From Zasmidium citrigriseum (lineage: Eukaryota; Ascomycota; Dothideomycetes; Mycosphaerellales; Mycosphaerellaceae), in the NCBI GenBank assembly GCA_002786025.1, contig NHNW01000036.1:62001-126000 (forward strand): a stretch of DNA of 64,000 bases. The letters are read 5' to 3'. The translations under genes were made by a program, and so were the position numbers. Below, one piece after another: positions 13,317-62,346 of this stretch. The notes below the pieces were generated by a model, which did not search any database, had not been told where the DNA came from, and saw only the letters and a program-made list of their open reading frames with translations. Each line of letters opens with the position of its first letter. Positions within the stretch are counted from its first letter, which is position 1.

Positions 13317-16300
13317 CTAGTCATCTCCCCCGAAGACAGCCTTGTGCTGCTCCAGCAGTGCCTGCACAGCCCCTCGCTGCACCTGCATATCGCTCATCTC
13401 CCGCTCGATCGACAGCGGCCGCATGATAGTCGGCGCAAAGACCACGGCGAGGTTCAATGGCGTCATGAGATTCTTAGACTCATACCCCATGACACGCGCC
13501 AGGTGCTTGATCAGGAACTCGAGGCAGTCGCGGTGCGCTTCGGGGAGCTCGCTGACGGCTTGACGTAAGGCCTGTCCTTGCTTCTCTTTGTCCTGCGTCT
13601 GGCCGGCTTCGAGCAGCGATTCGTAGGCGTCGTAGACGATAAGGGGTGTGGGCAGTTTGCGGAAGTATTGCTTCAGCGCGCTGGTAACGGCGTGAATGTC
13701 TAGATCCTGGTCCGAGATGTCGTAGTTGTTATCCTTTTCAAAGCCTTGTTGGACAGACTTGACTTGGCCGGCACCGCCGGACTTTCGGTAGATGCCTTCA
13801 GCGTCCATGCCGCGGGCCTCGACCTCCTGAATGCATCTAGCGACGATGCTGGGTATCAGTCGGTTCTCAAATTCGCAACGAGCACCGAGCTCCGAACCGA
13901 ACAACACTATATTCGTTAGCATGTGACTCTGACAATGAGTTCCTGCTTTCGACTTACCGGAACCATCTGACGACACCAAATTCGTACTGCTGTTGTCCTT
14001 GAGATGGCCAAGACCCGTACCTTGCTTGCCACCATTCTTCTGACCGAAGAAGCCATACCCCGTACTCTTGCCGTCATCCATACCCTTGCTCGTGATACTG
14101 CTCTGTTCACTGCCAGCGGTCGCCTGTGACTGGTTGTACGGATGACCGATAGAGTACTTTCCTTGCGGACCTTGTTCACTTCCGGCGAATGCGCCCTTGA
14201 TGCCCTTGGTAACCTTGCCCGTGATCTTCTCACCACGATTGCGCCAGTTGAATTTGTTCGGCTTTCCGCCCTTGCGAATATTCACGACTTGCGGTGCAGT
14301 CAGAACGGTCGCCGGCTCAGCGTCTGGATCCTGCAAAAGATTTGGCATCGACGGATCTGTGTTGACAATGTTCAAGTTTCGCACTTCAGCAGCGCCAGTA
14401 TCAACTTTGGCACCTGGATGGTAGATACCGAGACCGTTTGCTCCATTTGTTGGTTGGCGATTGTCCTGGTACATGCCCTGGATGCTTCGTATAAGTTCGT
14501 TGTTGTGCTGGAGAAGCTGGGTGTTCTTTGTCGACAAAGACTCATACTCCTGGAAGCCTTTGTCTTTCATCTGAATGAGATTGCCAATCTCATCCGTCAG
14601 TTCATTGCGCTTATGCATCAGCTCTTCGATTTGCGCGCCCATCTGATCCTTGAGCTTCTGAAGTGATTCAGCGAAATCTTTGAGGATGGTAGTCTTGAGC
14701 GATGCGAGATCCAGCGGCTGATTGCTATCCTTCGCTTTGCCCAGATGCTCGGTCATGACTTCCAGCTCGCGCACTATCATTTCTCGCTGCGTGTCCAGGA
14801 ACGCCATTGTAGAACGCTTCTCGCGCAGCTCAGTATTCACCGCCTTCATTTCGGAAGAGCCATCGAGCTTCTCTTGCAGGATCAGCTTCTCAGCCTCCAG
14901 CTCAGCGATGTGTGTCTGCGCCCGCCTCAGTGAAGCGCGCAGCGACTCAAGCCCGTCAGCACTGGTCGGTGAAGTGATATTAGGCGTCTGTGAAGGCGAG
15001 GATATCTCGACAGATCCGTTCCTCGGCGACTTGCCACCCGGTGCAGCTCGGTCGCTGAAGCTCCTGCCGTGTTTCACAGCATTTGACACCCGGCGCAGAA
15101 CTGAAGGCGAAGCTGCACCTCCTTCTCTGGTCTGTCCGGCCTGGCCAGGCTCCCCGCGTAAGATGCGGCCCATCTCATCATCCATTGAGAAGCCGCCATC
15201 GAGACTGTACTTTGGTAAACCAGCACTTCGTAGTCCAGGCGACAATTGTCCATCGATCGACGGCCGGTCTTCACTGCTTTGCATTGTGCTGATAGATTCG
15301 TTATGTTTGTGTCCCGGAGGCGGCGGAGGCGCATGTCTGGGTGCGATGAAATCATCATTGGCTACAGATTTGCTGGGTGCGCTGGGTCGGGATGCCGCAC
15401 GTGGTGGTGGGCCTGCCTCAAAGCTATTCCGCACGACAGTCGGTTCTGGCTTCGAGCGGCTGTTGTCGCGTGAAAGGGTACTTTGCGCATCCGTGAAGTT
15501 CGAAGGAACGGAAGACGAAGACTGATTGCGCTCATGGGTGGGCTGCTGCGACTGACTCCTGTTCGCATTTGTTGCTGCAGTCGGTGTTGCAGGGTCCGGC
15601 TCCGGACGTTTCGACTTCGCTCCAAGTGAGTCCCCTCGCAGTGGCAGACCTCGATCTGCATGTTTGTTAGGAGGGACCGGCGTATCATTTACGTTCGCGC
15701 CCTTCTTCCGCTTGGGATCATCAAATGGGTTGACCCCGGAATTCTGCGAGTCAACGGATACCGGTGATATGGGTTGGCCGGAGCTGTCTCCTCTGCTATT
15801 GTTCCCATCAATTGGCGAGACGACCATTGGCGAATTCTGTCCCGCTCTCGAACCGGCTCGTGATCGTTCCTTTGCAGATCTTGGCACATCCTGCAGCTTG
15901 AACCCGTCCTGCTGATTGAGGGTGTGAGAGTCCGTGGCGAGCGGTGGTGCCTTCAGCTTCGCCGCTCCTCTATCCTGTGCGTTGGCGGTCACCGGTGAAG
16001 CTGTCGTGGAACCGTTTGCGGGCGTGGTTGGACCCGAAGTGTTTCTCTTGCTGTTGTTTCGGCCCTTTTCTTGGTACAGTATATGCGGGCTCGGCTTTGT
16101 CTGGCTGGGCGCCTGCTCACGCTCCGTGGATACCGATCTTGACGATGCAGTCCCTGGTCGCCCCTCGTCTCTCGGCGGTGGTTTTGCAGACAATCTCCCA
16201 TTTTGTACACCAAAATAATCCCTCGGTTGATTGTTCTCCTTGCGCGGCTCCGGCGAAAGTTCATTGCTACGCCCTACTTGCTTTCGCGGTATCGCAGGTG

Positions 16301-44447: not shown

Positions 44448-45878
44448 TTATTTCAAACTCTCCATCTGTCTCCTAAGCTGGAGCCGTCGCTTGCTGATTT
44501 GGAGCCGTCGCTCGTCAATCTGAAGAGCTTGCTCGTCAAGTTCGATCTCTTCCAGGTCCATATCGAGCTTCCGCTTTTCCCTAGAGACCTCACTGGGATC
44601 ATTGCAGCTGACCCGTGGCCTCATAGACTCCTCCGTCGGGCGCTGCTGTCCCATCTCTTCCGGTGACCTGGAAGTCTCTGGCGGTACTTCTGCTTTGGCG
44701 GCATCTGGTGGTCCTCCTACGACAATCTCTTCCTCGTCGTCTTCGTCCTCATCATCAGGAAGCGCCACGATCCGCTTTCTCTTGCGTCGCTCTGGAGGCG
44801 GAGAGGATCTACGCCCACCGCTTGAGCCTCCACGCCCGCTGGACTTGTCTGGCTCTTGAGAGAGGCTATGCTCCTCGCCCCGTGGAAGCCCGTGTCTTGC
44901 CCAATTCTCAGTCATCGAATAATCGACCTGTCGCACTCCACGAAGACCCCTCGTCGTTCTCGCTAGCGCTGGATCCAGATTTCCGCTGCTTTCGGACGAC
45001 AAGGAAGCCGTGGGAGTGGTTTTGGTGCTCTGGCTTGAAGAAGCTGGTGTGACCAGTCGATCAAAGTCCGCAACATCTGGCAACCGATAAGCATCTGAAC
45101 CCGCTTCTGTGAATGGAATCATAGGGCGACTTACCGATATTGCGAAAATGGAATTCGCAGACGGTGCCGTTATTTGCATTGAGAGGGCGGAAGCTTTCGA
45201 AATTGGTCTTAAGCCGAGATTTGTGATCGAAAGAGCTCTTACTACTGAGAGAATATCAGTAATGTGGACTTGTCACTACGATGGAAATCTTACAGGATTC
45301 TTCTCGGCGGATCCGTGAGACGGTATTTGGTTGGATCCAGCGAAAAGTGACCGCGAAGGACGTAAACGAAACACATCCAAGGTGCGGAACTAACATGTCC
45401 TTCCAGTTGTGGCGCCCAGCCCGTGCGGTGACGAGCCTCGTGTTGGAAGGGGCTGCAGTCGTCAGTATTGACCGTCGTATGGCAATGTCAAGAACTTACT
45501 GATTGGAACGGCGTTAGGCATGTAGTATGTCACTCTTTGGATTTCTGCGTGGTTGCTCTCCCACGTGGTCATCCCTTTGAATTTTCGCGTGCCCAGGGAT
45601 TTGTCGCTCTTGCAGTATACCCACGCCTGGGTAAGACCAAAGTTGCCGAGGTGTTGTTGGTTGCCGTCGTCGTACGCGATCGCCAGGAACAGCGTGTCTG
45701 CGTCCATCCAACGGAACCGATTCTCAATAGTCACGCTGACCGCAAACTGAGAACCTGGTCTTGCGGAAATGCCTCCAAATTTGAACTTCTGTCGGTCTCT
45801 GGTATCCATTTCCATCTCTTGCAGTGGCTTATCCTTTTCGTCCAGGATGCAGACTTCGATGCCGCCCCCGATGGCCAT
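44448..45878 (-). CDS. Array paralogue A: DUF7918-like domain plus charged coiled-coil tail
   Basis: Exons 45878-45500, 45399-45294, 45244-45135 and 45094-44448 give 413 residues. The N-terminal domain (about 1-200) starts GGGIEVCILDEKDKPL and includes LFLAIAYDDGNQQHL, the motif CFVYVLRGHFS and the closing strand VCEFHFRN just before intron 3. The tail is acidic, then basic (RKRKR near GGRRSSPPPERRKRKR), then a Glu/Leu-rich coiled coil (LEEIELDEQALQIDERRLQI). Intron 1 needs an acceptor at GGAAG, about 100 nt from the donor, because the nearer CAG gives the wrong frame. No enzyme motif was seen. Family resemblance to DUF7918 is by motif memory only. Confidence 0.7.
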
Positions 45879-46343
45879 TTTGCAAGATCGACGAATGTGA
45901 CGAGGGCGAGGCTGTCGCTTCGGGCAAAATTGAAGCTGGGCTGTGTGCGGGTGTTTTGATGTGGCGGGAGCTCGGACCACTAGCTTCGAAAAAGCCGCAT
46001 GTGAAAGTTGACGAAGATGGAAGGAGCACGGTTTTCGCCAGCCCGCTTTCCAACACCGAATGCAAACTCATTCCCTGCGTAGAAATATTGTGACGGCGGT
46101 CCGCATCGGCAATCGAGGCTAGAAAGAGTATGTTGTGCACCCCGCCACAAGCACCAATTGAGTCAAGAGACGGCATGACGAGACGAACAAGGGCACATGA
46201 CTGGATTCATACTCTTACTATCTTCTGATCTTGAACCCATGCGAAGATCTCAGGTAGAGCATGTCGTACCTATGAAGGTCATTTGGATCGGACTAACAGA
46301 TCCAGTGCAATCTGAATCCAGTGACCGCTTTCTTCTAACGGCA
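45879..46343. other. Spacer between array paralogues A and B
   Basis: A 465 bp spacer that must carry the promoter of A and the 3' end of B. No remnant of another copy could be recognised. Confidence 0.4.
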
Positions 46344-47501
46344 TCAGTCCTCGAGATCCAACAGCTGTTTCTTGACCTGGAGCGCCTCCTGCTTCAATTC
46401 GATCTCCTGCAACCGCATTTCAAGCTCCTTCCTCTTCTTGATTTTGGCATTGGAATCTTCGGTGTTTCTCGGTCCATCTGCGTTCGCATTGGCGATTCGC
46501 CGTTCTTCTACCCGGCCAACCTGCCCCGTTTGGTCTGCCTTGGGCTCCGGCTTGATTGCAGCTTCCATGAAGCGTGGCAAGACTTCTTCGTCATCTTGAT
46601 CCTCGTCCTCGCAGATGTCTTGCGGCCTGGCATGTTTTACACGTTTCGGCTCTGTCGCTGGAGTTGGTGGCTTTCGCCTCTTCGTTGTGGGTGGTAGTTT
46701 AGAGACCGCTGGCTTGGAAATTGACTTGGCCTTCGGCTGGGCCTTTCGTTTCGGCTTCGAAATTCCTGAAGTAAGAGCACGCCTCATGGACTTGTAGGGG
46801 TTCCACGCCTCGTCAGGGTCTTCGGCTGCAAGAAACATATTAGTTCGTCGATTCCAAAGAATCGAGTTGATTCGGCATCAAAGTCTTACCGACATTCCTG
46901 AAATGGAATTGCCAGATGTCAGTTCCCGGCGGTCCACCGAAGCAACCAAGATCGACCCTTGGCCAGGTCCCCGAGCTGGCAGGTTCGCTCTGCCTTGAGC
47001 GCAAGTGACCCCGCTGAGCATACATCGAAATGCAGCTGGCATATGACTGCAGCTCATTGGTGATGTCTTGAAAGAAGATGTTGATGGGCGGTGGCGTATC
47101 CGCTGATAAAAATTAGTCGCAGTCAGTCGCAATGGTGAGGTTTGCTTACTCAATCCCATATCCTGCGGCATGTAGTATGACTTGCCATTTTGATCGCGAT
47201 CAAAAGCGTGCTCCGTAGCGTAGCTGCTGTCTTTCTTGATGACATATGCATGGGTCAAGTTGGTCGTGTGCAGATGTTGACTGGAGCCGTCATCATAGGC
47301 AATGGCTACGAATAGCGCGTCCGCATCCTTCCAGTCGAAGCCTTCATCGATCTTGACAGTGAAGGCGAGCTGCCTTCGAGGTTCCACGAAGATCGTGCAG
47401 TATCGGTAAAAGCCCTTTCTTCCCTTCGACCGCCCGTGTTCTTTGACTTGAACATGATTGGCATCCTTGAGGAAGACAGTCAAGCCCTCGCCGTGGACCA
47501 T
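46344..47501 (-). CDS. Array paralogue B: DUF7918-like domain plus basic tail
   Basis: Exons 47501-47150, 47102-46890 and 46825-46344 give 348 residues. The N-domain has the same order of motifs as A: GLTVFLKDANHVQV, LFVAIAYDDGSSQHL, then CISMYAQRGHL and IWQFHFRNV at the exon end. The intron found at the RGHL position in A, C, D and E is missing here. The tail is basic and Pro/Lys-rich (KPKRKAQPKAKSISK and TTKRRKPPTP, nuclear-type signals), has an acidic patch DEDQDDEEVLPRF, one psi-K-x-E site (IKPE), and ends in a coiled coil (KELEMRLQEIELKQEALQVK) strikingly like the end of A. Confidence 0.75.
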
Positions 47502-47829
47502 GATGTCGTCTCGCTCTTGTAATTTGGAGGATACATGTTGGTTGATGAGTCCAAGTCAGAGGCGGAGCTTAGAAGTTGACGAGTGAAGCATTTCAATGCC
47601 AAGCCACTAGCGCAATGCATGTGACAGCGGAGGTGAGGGCATCGATGAGTATGCAACACGCAAATCGCCTGCTAGTCACCAAAAGCCTACAATCAGATGT
47701 TGAAGGGGTAGGTGTAAGATATGTCGCTTTCTCAAAAGCTCACTTCTCACTGACGCATAGTTTGACGAAGCAGAAGCCGTTGGCTCACAGAAGTCATCTG
47801 AAGATGTTTCACAATTCCGATACTGTCGA
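47502..47829. other. Spacer between array paralogues B and C
   Basis: A 328 bp spacer with the promoter of B and the 3' end of C; nothing else was recognised. Confidence 0.4.
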
Positions 47830-49328
47830 TCATTCATCAATGTCCATGAGCAAATCTCTTTCCTCCATTTCGACTTCCTCCAATCTCCATTTCACACCTT
47901 CCTGCATCAATTTGATCCTTTTCATTTGGAGAACAGATAGTTTCCGCCTCTTTGCGTTTGACAGGTTCGCCTCGTTTCGCTGTCCTGCTGGAATAGCAGC
48001 AGCTCCATCAGTGGTAGACTTTCCATCAACTTCCATGGCTGCGTTCTCCACTTGCTGAGGCTTGAGATTCGTGAACGACGTTTGGGCTGACAGATCTTGC
48101 TCTTCGTCCTCCATCTCCTCATCGCCCCTCGCCGTGTGCTCTTCAGTAACCTTCCGTTTCCTGGTTCTGGAGAGAGATTCAGGAGATGGGAGACTCCTAT
48201 CCTGGTTTTCACGAACCTGTTCCTCGTCGCTGATGTGGCCGTCATCGTCCTCGGATTCGCCCCTGCCGTCATCATCCCCTTCCAAGTCCTCGTTGACATA
48301 GTCCGTGTCCGCTTCGCGCTGTCGTTGGGTTTCTTCGAGAATGGGCCCCAGTGAGTCTGTAAAATAGTCTCTTCGTGGCAGACTTTCCAAACGGGTGGAA
48401 TGCCTTCGGCTGGCAGCATCATCCACCAATTGTGAGGCTTTCGCCGCGACGGTCGATGCCGGTTGGCTTGTTGTCGTTGGGGCAGAAGGCTTCGTCTTTG
48501 CAGCGGCCTCGAAGGTCCATCGGTCTGCAAGTACGTTAACCCAATCCAGCCAATGGAAATGTAATTTTAACATGTGGGAGGGATCACTGACCGACGTTTG
48601 CAAAATGAGTCTCGAAGACTTTCCCGTCCCCATTCGCCAACTCGTCGAAGCATTCGAGGTTGACCCTTGTAAATCTGTTCTCACAGGTCAGGTTATCTCG
48701 GCTGTATATAGGTTAGTCTGGTGCAATTCGGAAGGTTTCTAGTGCTGTTTCTCACAGGTGCTTTGGAAACGGATCGGCAAGGCGTCTCTTCTGTACTCTT
48801 TGGACGCAATGTCCACGGTGTACGAAGACCGATATGCAACCCCGATGAGAGGCCAATCTATCCTTCCATTCAGTCCTATTTGAAGATGGCCTAGACCCTA
48901 CAGTGGCTGTTTTGGTCAGCGGGAAACTTGCACTTTGATGAATTGTACATACCGGCAGCCACGGGTTCGGGTAGTCGAAAGTACTTGTCCTGTCTTCCGC
49001 GCTGTTTGGGCCACGTATAGCAAATGTCGAAGCTGTGTTCAACTGGGAGTCTGTTGGTCTTTTTCAGAACCGCTACTTGAGTAAGAGCGTTGGTCTCAAG
49101 ATGTTGATCATCAGAATTGTCGTAAGCAATGGCCACACGCAGATGCTCTGCGGCTTTCCAATCGAAGCGTTCTGTGATCGCAAGCTTGACTATGAAGTTT
49201 TCTCCAGGCGCACCGCTGATGATGCGGTATCTTGAGTGCTGGTCGTCATCGATTGATAGCTTCTTCTGGTCGAAGGGCTTCTTATCCTTGTTGAGAAGGC
49301 GAAGCTCAATGCCGTTGCTCTTCAACAT
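47830..49328 (-). CDS. Array paralogue C: DUF7918-like domain plus acidic tail
   Basis: Exons 49328-48953, 48906-48756, 48701-48592 and 48524-47830 give 443 residues. N-domain motifs: GIELRLLNKDKKPFD, LRVAIAYDNSDDQHL, CISVFVHRGHC and ETHFANV before intron 3. All three introns of the full pattern are present, in phases 1, 2 and 1. The tail is strongly acidic (DLEGDDDGRGESEDDDGHIS), has a short basic stretch (RTRKRKVTEEH) and ends with KRRKLSVLQMKRIKLMQEGV and an acidic helix. Compared with A and B the body is longer, but the region ending in a helix of charged residues is shared. The function is unknown; a nuclear location is inferred from the basic clusters. Confidence 0.75.
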
Positions 49329-50026
49329 CGTCCAGTGTCTGTCCTGAGTTAACTTGGGATGGTTTGGAACTGACCACAGTAGTCTTGAGACTTATATGAG
49401 GGCGTTGAGACGTATTGGAAGATTCTTGCTTGCGCCAAGACGCTAGCGCATGTCGCACGTGAAACATGAGTGAATGAGCACGAAGCATGCAGAACTATGC
49501 TCGGAGACGAAATAATGATTGTTCTGCCCTAAATCTGATTCCAGAGATTCTCAGACTCATTCGTAGCGCGCGAGATGAAGACTTTAGAACCGCCGAGTAA
49601 CCTCTCACCCCGTTCTCGCACAATTTTTGCGGAGCACAAAGATTTGATTCAAAGGAGGGCAAAACAACACAAGACTCTCACTCAAAAGAATTTCATTCAA
49701 GCTAGCCACTCAGAGCCTGGTCTGTTAGCCATCTCGCATCATGTTGCGAGAAGCTCTCGCTCCCGTGAATGGGCCATCCGATCTGCTTCAGCCATATTCC
49801 CCCTGACAGTGCTCCCGGGCGACTGAACAGCCGCGATCTTGCCTTGTGATCCGGCGGTCTGCTATCCTTTCGGCAAGCATGAGGGTGATCTCCGCGATCT
49901 CCTACGTAGATGACTGAGTACAGCCGTAGGCTCCGCTATCCAGAGCCTTTTGCAGCATTGCCCCTCGGATCATGATGTGCCGGTTTCACCATGAGATACA
50001 TCACCGCAGAGTTGCAGCCGATGAAT
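49329..50026. other. Spacer between array paralogues C and D
   Basis: The widest spacer in the array (698 bp), and it separates the A-C subgroup from the D-F subgroup. A plus-strand frame at 49575-49826 has no support. A decayed seventh copy was looked for by eye and not found. Confidence 0.4.
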
Positions 50027-51458
50027 TCACTCCTCCGTCTTCAGAAACATGGCTGTCTGCTTCTCTTTCTCCTTCTCAATCGCTCTTATCTTCCGTCTGA
50101 GCTCGATTTGCCGATATTCGTCTCGCATGTCTTCTACATCCTCGCTGTTTCCCCTCATAAACTCGGCTTTCCTCTTGACGCTTCTAGGCAAGAGATTGGT
50201 AGGGTCCCTAGATTCGCGCCTGGAGTTCAGCTCGGCGCTGTCGTCGTCGGTGTCGCCGGTAAGATCGATCGAGTTGGATGACCGATCTTGCTCTCTGCGC
50301 TGCTCTTCTCCGCGTGGTACACCGTACGATGACCGAGTCTGCCTTGAGTGCGGAACTTGTGTTTCAGGAGTACGTTCTGTCTTGATGAGCTGATGCTGTG
50401 GCTCTTCATCATCCTGGTCCTCATCTCCTGCTGAGTTTGGCTGCTTCTTGCGTCCGAGTCTCAGCTTTGGCCTAATAAGCTTGTAATCCCTTCTCGGCTT
50501 ATTATGGAGTCTCGCCGACCGCCGCTTGCTTGGAGGCTCGTCATCGCTGTCGTAGTCGTTATGCTTCTGAAATGAACTGGAGGAATCGTTCGTGGAGGAC
50601 GAGCGGGTCTGGTCATCTTGACTCGGCATTGATGTCGTAGCAGGCGCCACTGTCTTCTTCGGCTTGGCTTGAAGCGCCTTGAGCTTGTCTGCGACTGATG
50701 AATGTCAGCAATCGTACTTTGATCACTGCCCTGGCTGTCCCTTACCCATGTTACGAAACTGGAAGGCGTGGGGACCGTATTCGCGGTTGAACCAATCCCA
50801 ATTGATGACCGATGGGCTGTTCAGGTCGCTAGTATGACAGTCAGCAGTTGTCACATGTACCACGGCATGCTGATCGAGACCTACCTGGACGGCAATCTCG
50901 GCTCCGTGGAATAGCGTTCTTGTATCTCTGGGCAGGAGTTGAGCTCGCCTTGGAGAATGAATACCGATACACAGCCCCAAAGACCCGCCAACTCGTCCGG
51001 CCACGACACATCCGCCATGTCTTCGTCCGTGTCTTCAATACCGTTAGCCGGGTATAATCAAGGAGGCAAAGTGCTTGGAACTCACCTGCTGGAGTTGGCA
51101 TCGCGAAAGGGACTTCTTTCGGTTCGATGCATTCGCCCTCCCAGATACGCAGACTCGAGAATGTGTACTTGAGATGAGTAGAGCTCGCCGGAATGAACCA
51201 GGTTTGGAAGTTCATATCTTGATCGCTGGCGCCCTGAGAAGCCCCGTATCTGATGACGACCACCGCATTGCCCTCACGAAGGTATTCGCGGCGGAACGTT
51301 ACCTCGATTTCGAACGCTTGTCCAGGAGTAACGGCGACCAGCTTGCTGCCAGCATAATGTCCGAGGTCTTTCGTTGTGACGAAGGGGTTTGGGTGTTCCA
51401 CGATGTAGGCATCGCAGCCGGCGACTTTGAGTCTGACTTGGACGTGTCGTATCAGCAT
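50027..51458 (-). CDS. Array paralogue D: DUF7918-like domain plus nuclear-type tail with IDLT motif
   Basis: Exons 51458-51086, 51032-50885, 50828-50746 and 50688-50027 give 421 residues. The N-domain begins MLIRHVQVRLKVAGCDAYIV and has FQTWFIPASS (shared with E and F, not with A-C), then WGCVSVFILQGELN and HAFQFRNM at the exon-3 end. Intron phases are 1, 2 and 1, as in A and C. The tail has basic clusters (SKRRSARLHNKPRRDYK, RPKLRLGRKKQ), a psi-K-x-E site (IKTE), a SUMO-interaction-like SIDLTGDTDDD, and a C-terminal coiled coil (YRQIELRRKIRAIEKEKEKQ). Confidence 0.75.
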
Positions 51459-51736
51459 GTTGATTTTGAAGTGTTCGAATCGAGGTGTGGTTGTTGTTGG
51501 TTTGAAGGAGAGGATATCGTGATGTGTGACCTGAAAACGTGTGAGTAGAAGCTTAGACCATCATCACTGTGGTCAAGTGAGGTAAAGTAGCAGCTACTGA
51601 GAGCTGCAATCTTCATGTGATCCAGCATGTGAAAGGAAAAAAATGAAGTTGAAAACCTACCCTTTCTCCGACACGCAGCCCTCCACTGAGCCAATGCTCC
51701 AGCCGTAGAAGTACCATCTCCCATCTCCGCCCCTTC

Positions 51737-53506
51737 TCATCTCTCCATCTTCACGCCCTTGGCCTTTCGCTTCCGCAAAGCTCGTCGCTTGATCCTCAGC
51801 TCAAGCAGCTCAATCTGGTCATCCATATCCTCTTCGTCCTCAGTATCTTCAAGGCAGATCGCTGGCTTCTTCGAGTCTTCGTTCTCCTCGACAGCGTTTT
51901 CCTGCTTCACGTATGGAGCCACGTTGTCGTCGTCTTCTGTGAGGTCGATGACTGTGGACTTGATTTGATTTGCCTTCGGTTGAGAAGCGGTCTGGGTTCT
52001 TTTTGTCGGCGTTGCCGTTGTCGGCGGTGGAATCGGTTTTACTGGCTCACTCGTGGGAGGCTGGTGGATGGACAATTGTTTCTCTCGCTCTCCGTCTTCA
52101 GTCTTATCATCTGCTGCCAGGGTGTCGAAGTGCTCTGCCGTGACAGTGCTTTCCGCAGCGTGTGCGCTGGGGACTTTCTCGACCTCTGAGACATGCCGAT
52201 ACTCTTCCGAGGCCTTTACAGCACCCATCGGGGCCGGAGGAGCGACGTACTGCGTCGATGCTTGAGGCTGTGGGTCATCCTCCCCCTTCCTCTGCGGAGG
52301 CGGGCTTGTCTCTTTCGCACCTCTATCTGCTCCTTCACGACTCTCATCTTCCGAATCATCCTCCTCGGAATGATCATCGGGAACGATGAAGCCATTGAGG
52401 TACTCAGCGTCGCTGTCAGACAAATTTTCAGCCTCATCTTCGGCTGTCTTGGCTTTCTTGTTCATGCTCTCCTCTGCGTCCTTGTCGCCATCAGTAGCAG
52501 CTTGTCGCTCTTCCATTTGACGGCGCTTCCTTTCTTCGATTATCTCGCGATCTGACGGAGGCTTGGGAAAGTGCTTGAGGTCTGCTTGAAGTTGTCTCCA
52601 TGGGTCCAACCGTTTGGGACCAGCGGCTGGTTTGCGAGTCTTTTTCGGCAAGGATGAGAGATCTTGAGAGTCAGTCCTACATGCTCGGTACAAAAGTTTC
52701 CAGCGTGGGACTTACCCTTAACATTGAGAAACTCCCAATGACAGCATTCTCCATTCTCACCCCGGAGTGGCTTGAACCAGACTGGATCGATGATCTTTAC
52801 GCTGTCAGTGGCATCGTTACTGTAATCATTAGCGAAGTGATCAAAGTTAGGTTGACAGCTCGACTTGCCGGGACGCCTCAGGAGGGTCAGTAGGGTGGCG
52901 TTGATGCCCCTTGCCGGGAGAAACATCTACAAGCCGGCCTCGCTGTATGGTGACGAGGATGCTTCCCTTGTTCGGCACCTCATCGATCTGCCATTCAAGC
53001 CGATCTCGACCGAATGCGAAATCGGCTCCAGCTTCGTCTCCTAGTAGGGAGTCAGTACACGAGCCACGAACGAGCGGGCTTTGGGTATACTTACTCTTGA
53101 CCTGCTCCGGCGCCTCCATCTTGCTGGTCCCCTCGACACTCCCGTCGTCATTGAACTTCGTCACCTCACTAAGTTCATACTCCTTGCCCTTATTCCAACT
53201 CCCGAGGCACTTTCTGGGAACCCACCAGGTCTGGATGTTCTCCGAAGTCTCTTGCTTGCTTGACCTGCCAATACCGATTGTGACTCTGACGCCTCGTGCT
53301 GAGAAAGCCTCAAAGCCCAGGTGAGTGTGGCAGGCGACACGGATCGCGATTCGCTCGCCTGAAGGTATTGCCATGCATCGTGATCGAACGTCGGCTTTCA
53401 GGCCCTGGATGACTTCGACGTCGTCATTGAAGTGTGCTGTGGCTAGGGGCTGTTCCTCTCTGTCGATGAGAATGATCTCGACGACAACGCCTCTTAGCGT
53501 GGGCAT
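51737..53506 (-). CDS. Array paralogue E: DUF7918-like domain plus long acidic tail; GC-AG intron
   Basis: Exons 53506-53095, 53040-52869, 52819-52716 and 52662-51737 give 537 residues. N-domain: RGVVVEIILIDREEQPL, then NIQTWWVPRKC (shared with D and F), GSILVTIQRGRLVD and the closing CHWEFLNVK. Introns 1 and 3 are GT-AG in phase 1; intron 2 is best read as GC-AG (CG|GCAAGT to TTACAG) in phase 2, matching the position in A, C and D. The tail is long and acidic, with VIDLTEDDD followed by YVKQE, and ends in a basic stretch (IKRRALRKRKAKGVKMER) after a short Leu-rich helix. Confidence 0.75.
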
Positions 53507-53828
53507 GGCCGGTTGCGCGCCGCTATTAATTGTTGTGTGGCGACAATGGTATACCTTCGTTTTGCGTGGAGTAGAATGGAGGATGGCGAATCCAAGAGAT
53601 GAGGATAGACAATTGAAAGCTGCTCTCACAGTGAGCGGCGATCGCATGTGCCATAGGAGGCAGCCAAAGCGACTAAGGTGAGAAGTCGCAACTGAAAGGA
53701 GAGACTGAACTGAGATTGACTTACATTTAAAGCAAATGAGCAGCCCATGCATATCCACCTCAACCTCATCCACCTAGCCAAGCCATCCGTGATCCCATCT
53801 CCATCCAATCTCAAAAGATGCATCCAGC
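53507..53828. other. Spacer between array paralogues E and F
   Basis: A 322 bp spacer with the promoter of E and the 3' end of F; nothing else was recognised. Confidence 0.4.
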
Positions 53829-55480
53829 TCACTCCTCCCGCTTCATCTTCATCTTTCCCTTCCCCTTACCATCTCCCTCCATGGCACTCATCTGCTTCTG
53901 AATCTGAGCTTGGATCATCTTCTCATGATGCACGCCCTCCCGCGCCTTGCTCTCCTCCAGCTCAAATCGGAGCTGTTCCATCGTTGGCGCCTTCTCGGCC
54001 TTCTCGCTCGACTCGAGCATCTCTTTCTTGATCTTGACGGTCTCGTCCTCATCGTCCCGTGTAAGATCGATGACCTCGATTGGTTCTTGCTTGACAGGGA
54101 CGGGCTCTGGAGGAGTTGGTAGGGCCTCTTCGTCGTCTTCGTCCTCGTTCATAGAATTGTAGAGTTGGCAGAGGGACTTGAGATCGCCTTTGGAAGCGGC
54201 TGCGTCTTTCGCTTTCTTCGACTTGGTCGCGGCGGTGCCCTGAGCTGGTGCCTTTCTCTTACGCCCTCGTACCTGGCGTCTCCGCGGCGTTGCATGTTCA
54301 ATTTCCACTCCCGGCATTTGGTCGCCGCTCAGCGTCTCGTTTCCTGAGTCGCCTGTCGCAGACGCCGCAGGCTCGAATCGTGGCATGGGCTCAACAGAAA
54401 ACCTCATAGCCCTCCTCATCTCATTCATTTCGTCGTCGCTCAGCTTCTCACCTCCTGAGCCATCTGTCGCAGACGCCGCCGTCTCAGATCGTGGCACAGG
54501 CTCAACAGAACTCCTGATAGCCCTCTCTATGTCGTTCATTTCGCCGCCGCTCAACGTCTCGTCTTCTGAGCCACCTACCGCAGAGTCCGGCGTCTCAGAT
54601 CGTAACATGGGATCTGAAGAACTCCTGATGGCTCTCTCGATGGCATCCTGCTCGCTGAGTGTGCTCCTGGCTTCCTCGATGGGAGACACGGACTCGCCTC
54701 GTGGCGACTCGATTCCTTGCTCTTCGTCCGCGTCGTCTGCATCGTCTGTATCGGCGGCATCTGGCCGAATCATGTTTCTGAGCTCGAAGACGATGGCTTG
54801 ATCTGATTCTTTGAACCAGTCCCGGCTAATGACCTTCGGCATACCTGTCGGCTTCCAGCGATGAGATGGCGGAGGGTCCGTGGGGTGTAACGCCCTGAAG
54901 GCCGTTTCGTCGGTGAGGTGGCCACGGGCAACGAAGATGGCAATGCAACCCTTGTTGGCAATGCCGAACTCCTTCCACATGACGTCCTGGCACCCCACCG
55001 CAGGGTTGTCTATTGCGAATTAGCTGCTGATCATCTGATTTACAGACACCTTGATAAGGGTAGAAACTTACCGTCCGGCACTGGAATCGTGATCCGCGTG
55101 GGCGTGGCTGGAGCATCATCATCTTCAGACTCCCAAGTAGAGATGAATTCGAAGACGTGCCTCCTCTTGAGGTTGCTCGCGTCGATCCACCAGGACTGGA
55201 CGTTACTTAAATCGGAAGGATCTTGCTCTGTGTGGCCCAGCGCCACGGTGACACGAACTCCAGAAGCACCCTGCAGCTCGAAGTCCTGGCAGAACCGAAG
55301 ACAGATCTTGACTGGGTCGCCAGGGTCGCAGCGAATGGCATGGGAAGCGAACTCGCCCACGCCGTTGTGTACTTTGTGGATGTTCTCGTGGTAGCTGAAG
55401 TCATTGCCGTCGAGGTCTTGGGTACTCAGTCGCACTCCGCTGAGCCGGTGGAATGTCATGCCATAGATCGAGTTCGGCAT
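53829..55480 (-). CDS. Array paralogue F: DUF7918-like domain plus repeat-bearing tail; introns lost
   Basis: Exons 55480-55072 and 55009-53829 give 529 residues. N-domain: LSGVRLSTQDLDGNDFSYHE, NVQSWWIDASN (as in D and E), GCIAIFVARGHLTDE and AIVFELRNM. Only intron 1 remains; the two introns present downstream in A, C, D and E are gone, with the coding sequence running straight through. The tail has three 37-residue repeats (see 54312), then basic sequence (RRRQVRGRKRKAP), a VKQEP site, VIDLTRDDEDE, an IKKE site, and a Lys/Glu/Met-rich helical end. It is the last gene of the array; upstream lies a housekeeping gene. Confidence 0.78.
54312..54644 (-). repeat. Three tandem 111 nt coding repeats in paralogue F
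   Basis: Three consecutive units of 37 residues, with the pattern (I/M)xRA(I/M)RxSxxPxxRxE-x-AxxSxAx-GSxxExLSxxEM. Units 1 and 2 share ERAIRSS and SET; unit 3 is more diverged (RRAMRFS, PRFEP). The units stay in frame and carry several Ser residues. Recent in-frame duplication by slippage or unequal exchange is the simplest cause. Confidence 0.8.
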
Positions 55481-61183: not shown

Positions 61184-62346
61184 ATGCCACCAACACCCAC
61201 CGTCCGCGGCGTCCACCTCGTGGGTTCTATCCCTCTGTCTAACACATCGGAAGTCTTCCGCAAAGTAACATCAGCCCTTCCTAATCGCCTCCGCCGGATC
61301 CCAGACGGAGAAACGGGATCAAGAGGGAACTTTGCGGCATGGCAAGCTCCTATTATCGGGCGTTGGGATGTGGTTCTTAATCCTTTGATTCGGAGATATT
61401 TGAAGCTTGAGAATCTGGAGCTGCCGGAGTACACTGAGGATGAGAAGAAGAGAGTGATTGAGGAGATGGAGGAGAAATTGGAGACGGAGTACGATGTTGT
61501 GGCGTTGGAGAGTTACGCGGTGTTCAAGAGGATGAAAGAGGAGGGTATCATTGAGAGGGATGTGAGATTCCTTGTTGCGTTGCCGAGTCATGTTACTGTT
61601 ACGGCGTTGTTTGTGAGGGAGGGGTTTCAGGCGGAGTTTGAGGGTGTTTATGAGAAGACGTTGGGGAGGGCTTTGGGGAGAATTCAACAGCAGATTCCGA
61701 GGGAGGAGTTGGCGATTCAGTGGGATTGTCCGCTTGAGATGGGAATGCTTGATGGGGTTGATCTTCCGGATCGAGATACGGAGAAGTGGTGGGAGAGGTC
61801 GGTGTTGGAGGGTGCGGTGGAGAGGCTGGCGAGGGTTTGTGAACTGGTTGAGGAAGGCGTGGAGTTGGGGGTGCATTTGTGTTACGGTGAGTCGAGATTT
61901 TCGTGTCGTCATTTCTTGTTTGTTGTCTCTGACTTTGGCTAGGCGATATGAAGGGAAAGCATTTCATCGAGCCTAAGACTGCAGATTCGCTCGTTCATAT
62001 GGCAAGGGGAGTCCTGGACCGCTGCCGGCGAAGGGTCGACTACATTCATCTGCCAGTGCCAAAAGACCGTACGGACGAAGCATATTTCGAGCCCTTGAGC
62101 GGACTTTCGGGGTATTTGCGTGATGGACACGAGCTTTGCTTGGGTCTTGTGCATCCAGATGATCTTGAAGGTACCCAAGAGAGGATCCAGGTGGCGGGCA
62201 AGTTCGTGCCTGCCTTCAGTGTTTCCAGTGAGTGCGGTATGGGCCGTAGATCGCAGGAGGCTTTCGGAAGTCTGCTCGAGATTGCTCTGGCGGTGTCAGA
62301 GCCAGTTGAAGCGGGTCGAGAACAATCACAGAGTCAAGAGCTCTAA
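61184..62346 (+). CDS. MetE-like (cobalamin-independent methionine synthase/UROD-fold) protein
   Basis: Exons 61184-61886 and 61943-62346 give 368 residues. The barrel fold is that of the C-terminal catalytic half of MetE, which moves a methyl group to homocysteine, but this short stand-alone form lacks the N-terminal half and its reaction is unknown. Seen: PTVRGVHLVGSIPLSNTSEV and RIPDGETGSRGNFAAWQ at the start, IQWDCPLEMGMLDG (the metal/substrate strand region), VHLCYGDMKGKHF across the intron, and SSECGMGRRSQEAF near the end, where a Cys is expected to bind zinc. The last 20 residues are Ser/Gln-rich. Its stop is three bases from the stop of TRM9. Confidence 0.82.

Follow-up and report, generated by a model that had tools for sequence, protein, structure and literature searches.

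A minus-strand array of six related genes

The window analyzed here is a stretch of 64,000 nucleotides from Zasmidium citrigriseum, comprising positions 62,001–126,000 of contig NHNW01000036.1 (hereafter C79) in a genome of 44.4 Mb and 148 contigs. Six genes, designated A to F, lie on its minus strand and occupy positions 44,448–55,480. An initial annotation of this DNA had described them as a six-gene array of locally amplified, sequence-diverse and nuclear-looking proteins, with a link to the Pfam family DUF7918 (PF25534) that was suggested by motifs. Here, gene models were built by hand, and the outer coordinates were kept as in that first reading.

Gene A (53829..55480; minus strand, as for all features of the array below) encodes 529 residues, with an N-domain at residues 1–218 followed by a long tail; its open frame and splice sites define a single intron (55071–55010, phase 1). 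Gene B (51737..53506, 537 residues) contains introns at 53094–53041 (phase 1), 52868–52820 (phase 2) and 52715–52663 (phase 1), the second of which has a GC-AG splice pair in the present model. Gene C (50027..51458, 423 residues) has introns at 51085–51033 (phase 1), 50884–50829 (phase 2) and 50745–50695 (phase 1), and gene D (47830..49328, 440 residues) at 48952–48898 (phase 1), 48755–48702 (phase 2) and 48591–48525 (phase 1). In gene E (46344..47501, 348 residues), two introns were modeled (47149–47103 and 46889–46826, both phase 1). Gene F (44448..45878) has three introns and is otherwise family-like, but its frame is broken within exon 2 (45452–45294): the match to its paralogues extends in the incoming frame up to GCVSF, and paralogue-like sequence resumes in the outgoing frame with VLRGHFSLD and continues through exons 3 and 4. 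Gene F may be a pseudogene or reflect an assembly error. Given this frame break, five genes are intact as assembled.

The six genes form one family. A profile built from any five of the N-domains found the sixth, with E values from 2.6e-28 to 1.2e-14, gene F being represented by the piece before its frame break (F1), and pairwise identity among the six is 15–33%. The array therefore stands as described in the initial annotation with respect to local amplification, sequence diversity and family unity, with the reservation that its sixth gene is broken. Protein searches of the genome identified three further members: G1 and G2, which lie in tandem on contig C24 (∼637.99–641.35 kb), and H, which stands alone on C121 (142.1–143.5 kb). 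Matches on C61 and C131 were discarded when their frames were read and found not to be family-like. This branch is thus present in the genome as groups of six, two and one, and more diverged copies may have escaped detection.

In a tree of the nine array-type and six canonical DUF7918 sequences, the two sets were split with a support of 100/100. G1, G2 and H grouped together at 95/96 and D, E and F1 at 83/85; the branching order of A, B and C, of which B and C are long branches, was unsettled. Homologue searches outside the genome gave no array-type relative. With a full five-protein alignment as the query, 7,993 candidates were scored and none was obtained at E 0.01, an outcome probably explained by query words drawn from the charged tails. 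Of the 334 word-sharing candidates that the N-domain of D drew from a set of 5.8 billion proteins, none was a relative at E values up to 1; this search depends on shared five-residue words and does not by itself prove absence elsewhere. Since this set includes related fungi, the array branch seems, within the limits of the D search, to be either restricted to a lineage or very fast-evolving.

Relation to DUF7918

The initial annotation had proposed comparing the six N-domains with the DUF7918 profile, for which the Pfam gathering cut-off is 27 bits. Gene D scored 25.3 bits (E 1.8e-5), exon 1 of gene F 20.9 bits and H 13.7 bits, and no match at all was obtained for A, B, C, E, G1 or G2. No array-type member therefore reaches the gathering cut-off, and D comes closest. 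A genome search with DUF7918 returned 11 stretches at E values up to 0.001, none of them on C79. A hidden Markov model (HMM) was also built from 29 public canonical sequences, from which window members were excluded and five short fragments of 34 proteins were left out. F1 scored 14.9 bits and D 10.2 bits with this HMM, compared with 2.9 bits for the best of 946 scored shuffles (1,400 were made); C scored 2.3 bits, and the scores of A, B, E and the later piece of F were within noise.

The relation was clearer when profiles were compared with each other. Using hhalign, the nine-member array profile matched the canonical profile with a Prob of 92.2 and an E value of 5.8e-7 (82.8 and 9.3e-6 in the opposite direction), over 64–65 columns that cover the N-terminal part only. 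The same comparison with a reversed profile gave a Prob of 0.4, and canonical gene model K5 (see below) was excluded from the nine-member comparison. With only six sequences on one side and five on the other, the match had been weak (Prob 19.5, E 0.0012), and it became stronger only once relatives had been added.

Intron structure points in the same direction. The phases run 1-2-1 in B, C, D, G2 and H; one or two of these introns are missing from A, E and G1, and the later phases of gene F are legible only in the frame after its break. Among five canonical DUF7918 genes (K1–K5) that lie on one strand of contig C112 (43.6–51.2 kb) in the same genome, a phase-1 intron is present in four (K5 lacks it), a subsequent phase-2 intron in all five, and a third, again in phase 1, in K2 and K4. 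In eight genes (C, D, E, G1, G2, H, K2 and K4), intron 3 follows an F-x-[FY]-R-like motif at a distance of exactly two codons; in B the distance is three codons.

On these comparisons the array N-domain is distantly homologous to DUF7918, with which it shares ancestry. Taken together, the Pfam and HMM scores, the profile-profile match and the intron structure led us to treat the array as a diverged sister branch of DUF7918 that falls below Pfam-level membership; the link suggested earlier holds as distant homology and fails at the Pfam cut-off. The two groups resemble each other in the N-domain, the 1-2-1 phases, the column of intron 3 and the occurrence of tandem arrays. Their tails also have [VI]-K-x-E motifs and VIDLT-like sequences in common, although in canonical proteins the latter stand at or near the C terminus whereas the corresponding motifs of the array are mostly internal to the tail. 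A further difference concerns the junction of head and tail: in most rows of the canonical alignment FRYRS is followed by a PR[ST]PSP linker and a helix, and PR[ST]P is missing from all eight intact array-type proteins.

With the C112 array, beside which scattered copies occur elsewhere in the genome, a tandem arrangement of DUF7918 genes has a precedent. The nearest canonical homologues were found in Lecanosticta (best E value), Zasmidium (47% identity), Aureobasidium, Cercospora and Ramularia; together with the shortness of the introns they mark the source as a filamentous ascomycete and suggest a Dothideomycete close to Mycosphaerellales. Several other DUF7918 stretches of the genome were read as open frames. 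On C119, a 386-residue frame (120.2–121.4 kb; L010:1724-2881) matches DUF7918 above the cut-off (29.4 bits) and has a C-terminal PHD-finger match below its own (17.7 bits versus 24); this pairing possibly links the family to chromatin, and is the only hint of such a link that was obtained. The same contig holds an uninterrupted DUF7918 frame of 247 residues (L007:91-2205, minus strand; 47.7 bits), adjoined by a 242-residue frame that is alike by eye and has no Pfam match. Long frames on C77 (L008:1138-2592; 40.4 bits) and C83 (L011:2-2347; 29.8 bits) match DUF7918 in its later part alone and are possibly intron-split or rearranged members.

SUMO-type motifs in the tails

Published work on SUMO motifs gives psi-K-x-E as the SUMO acceptor consensus (PMC7096222), and describes VIDLT, the SUMO-interacting motif (SIM) of PIAS1, as among the tightest SUMO binders, with peptides of (I/V)DLT core favoring SUMO2/3 (PMC3901395, PMC4907222). 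Candidate SIMs with acidic flanks were observed in the tails of A (VIDLTRDDEDE; core at 54060..54074), B (VIDLTEDDD; core at 51938..51952) and C (SIDLTGDTDDD; core at 50258..50272). Judged against these sources, A and B carry the PIAS1 core unchanged together with its C-terminal acidic residues, and the SIDLT of C contains the (I/V)DLT core. The likeness to PIAS is confined to this short motif, and Pfam lists neither SP-RING nor any other PIAS domain for the array proteins. Candidate acceptor motifs of [VI]-K-x-E type occur in A (VKQE, 54084..54095; IKKE, 54021..54032), B (VKQE, 51899..51910; VKME, 51743..51754), C (IKTE, 50375..50386) and E (IKPE, 46545..46556).

These motifs are more frequent than composition predicts. 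The six window tails, with F counted by the piece after its break, amount to 1,432 residues and contain six [VI]K.E motifs in four tails, compared with a shuffle mean of ∼1; this count was reached by 0/2000 shuffles in one run and 3/5000 in another. The [VIS][VI]DL[TS] pattern occurs three times, once in each of three tails, with a shuffle mean of 0.012, and its count was reached by 0/5000 shuffles. The near-miss controls [VI]R.E, [VI]K.D and E.K[VI] were all absent from the six tails. When G1, G2 and H were added, [VI]K.E rose to nine occurrences in 7/9 tails and the VIDLT type to 4/9, the fourth being a VVDLT in G1; [VI]R.E and [VI]K.D remained at zero and E.K[VI] was found once. By comparison, fourteen other open reading frames of the window (8,223 residues) hold six [VI]K.E motifs, no [VIS][VI]DL[TS] and one match to the looser [VI][VIL][DE]L, giving P values for the [VI]K.E excess of 7e-4 for the window genes and 3e-5 for the nine members. 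The genome as a whole contains 67 VIDLT-coding 14-mers (18 for the backward pattern), two of which lie in genes A and B.

Thus, psi-K-x-E motifs outside the folded domain, which characterize SUMO substrates, are present in four of the six window tails (in neither D nor F), and a hydrophobic SIM core with an acidic flank is present in three (A, B and C). By patterns that we defined, five of the six tails contain basic clusters and five contain acidic runs. An acidic run precedes [VI]K.E by at most 30 residues in 7/9 tails (shuffle mean of 0.065 pattern counts), a pattern framed after the tails had been seen.

The canonical tails show SUMO-type motifs as the array tails do, and by the same sequence counts more strongly. 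An alignment-based cut, used in place of a regular expression that had recognized 13/34 proteins, yielded 27 tails of at least 50 residues, 21 of them left after near-copies were dropped. Many end in VIDLTDD, VIELD or similar sequences, and [IV]KRE is also present. The 21 tails contain 24 [VI]K.E motifs, distributed over 19 tails, against a shuffle mean of 2.5, and this count was reached by 0/2000 shuffles; the controls gave 0 for [VI]R.E, 1 for [VI]K.D and 0 for the reversed motif. A [VIST][VI]DL[TSLC] core followed by an acidic residue occurs in 8/21 tails (shuffle mean 0.04). No motif excess was seen in the folded domains of these proteins. In the C112 array, all three complete models (K1, K3 and K4) have [VI]-K-x-E motifs in their tails; models K2 and K5, which fail after the third and second intron, respectively, were omitted from tail counts.

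The charged coiled coil that the initial annotation had named, together with composition, as all that the tails share did not hold up as a conserved element at the C terminus: none of the six window genes exceeds its shuffles in this respect, only G1 and G2 show the coil clearly, and it was rejected. What several of the tails share above shuffled sequence is the SUMO-type motifs.

Fold, other domains and surroundings

An N-terminal immunoglobulin-like β-sandwich was predicted by a model of a canonical DUF7918 protein, and the array N-domains may adopt the same fold. The array model itself (gene B, with intron 1 retained, and exon fragments) has a pLDDT (predicted local distance difference test) of 45.9, and its strand order resembles that of the canonical model. 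Matches to β-sandwiches of solved structure (the TEAD YAP-binding domain, RhoGDI and PDE6D) were too weak for any functional inference, and the best PDB match by sequence (E 0.023) was rejected.

Pfam gave no match of any kind above cut-off in A to E or exon 1 of F, and repeat-induced point mutation (RIP)-type dinucleotide indices of the array resemble those of the rest of the window; both results agree with the earlier statement that the array is not a transposon. A match to DAAD, an AID/APOBEC-like deaminase family, in the charged tail of B (E 0.11, 12.8 bits versus a cut-off of 25) is at noise level, and matches to Cwf15 in B and to domain 5 of GH101 in D (E 0.0066), both far below cut-off, were taken as charged-tail noise. 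No signal peptide was seen by eye in the array N termini. Basic clusters and SUMO-type motifs in the tails fit the earlier impression that the proteins look nuclear.

The tail of A also contains three tandem units of 111 bp, 37 residues each, at 54315..54646 (minus strand; Tandem Repeats Finder). By eye these resemble the ubiquitin-interacting motif (UIM) consensus. A Pfam scan of the repeat stretch gave no match above cut-off; UIM was not listed for the stretch or for two single units, the motif being very short for such a scan, and sub-threshold matches to Sid-5, TPX2 and the L1 trimerization domain were taken as noise. A pairing of a SIM with UIMs, to which the tail of A may be compared, is known from RAP80.

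The genes that flank the array encode, by Pfam, malate dehydrogenase (from 42.8 kb) on one side and Nup54/57 (56.7–58.2 kb) on the other. At 13317–41316 of the window, Pfam identified ordinary neighbors, namely LIM-RhoGAP, CLASP, a KH-domain protein of the Mug60/KHD4 type, a TauD dioxygenase and a carnitine acyltransferase. The genome has 15 stretches that match Rad60-SLD, the ubiquitin-like domain family that includes SUMO; some of these are probably ubiquitin.

Interpretation

The recurrence of a basic cluster, an acidic run, an acceptor lysine and a SIM suggests nuclear proteins that are SUMOylated and bind SUMO. The explanation that we favor, and to which as a whole we give about even weight, is that the array arose by local tandem duplication, that its genes have since become highly diverged, and that they encode SUMO-wired nuclear β-sandwich adaptors. 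Each protein would join an N-terminal β-sandwich to a probably disordered tail, in which a basic cluster and an acidic run occur in most members, an acceptor motif in 4/6 and a PIAS-type SIM in 3/6. The tail would become SUMOylated and would also bind SUMO; these contacts would bring the protein into SUMO-dependent nuclear assemblies, and the fast-changing β-sandwich would supply specificity for a partner or ligand.

Several observations weigh against this explanation. The tails of D and F contain neither SUMO-type motif, those of E, G2 and H have no VIDLT-type motif, and that of G1 lacks the acidic flank. The looser pattern [VILMF]K.E falls short of significance when the tails of the six genes that contain it are counted (371/5000 shuffles), and the window genes share no C-terminal helix beyond what their composition gives. 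If D and F are functional, they manage without SUMO motifs, as would be expected were the motifs incidental and the same family one of nuclear transcription or chromatin co-regulators acting, independently of SUMO, through a β-sandwich and the acidic and basic tail segments. The basic clusters and acidic runs, each in 5/6 tails, and the sub-threshold PHD match that shares an open frame with DUF7918 on C119 would be consistent with this account. We nevertheless consider it unlikely, since the enrichment of [VI]K.E does not extend to [VI]R.E and [VI]K.D, which would suit charged helices just as well and are wholly or almost wholly missing, and no shuffle reached the VIDLT-type count.

The low identity among the six genes, the frame break in F, the variation in gene number from locus to locus and the want of a shared C-terminal helix could also be the marks of an ordinary birth-and-death array, in which old tandem duplicates drift under weak constraint and have no special role in common. 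Such an origin appears quite improbable to us, given that five of the six genes retain long open frames, conserved intron positions and the domain core, and that SUMO-type motifs persist in otherwise unlike tails. In the initial annotation a part in self-recognition or genome defense was proposed, and the array would then be diversifying to that end. Tandem amplification, strong divergence and the failure of the D N-domain to find a relative would fit this proposal, but divergence alone implies no such role, and among A to E and exon 1 of F no defense-type Pfam domain rises above cut-off, the nearest being the noise-level DAAD match; we regard it as very improbable. Overall, the observation in that annotation is partly confirmed and its interpretation partly supported.

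The SUMO-wired adaptor explanation has a wider form, which we put forward tentatively and hold to be somewhat unlikely: DUF7918 and its sister branch would together constitute a fungal superfamily of adaptors that carry and read SUMO, with a β-sandwich diversified through tandem arrays and each copy recruiting a different partner into SUMO-dependent nuclear assemblies. Such a superfamily would possibly be a fungal counterpart, by analogy, of multivalent SUMO-SIM scaffolds. The canonical homologues with tail motifs span several Pezizomycotina classes. No paper naming DUF7918 or PF25534 was found among 5.39 million open ones, and as far as the literature under these two names goes, neither the sister branch nor the SUMO link seems to have been reported.

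DUF7918 is a domain of unknown function, for which the acceptor lysine and the SUMO-binding core provide a concrete hypothesis, namely that these proteins may be fungal SUMO clients and readers. The window adds that such genes can amplify and diversify locally, and its series of paralogues would allow the motifs of the tail to be separated from a changing head.

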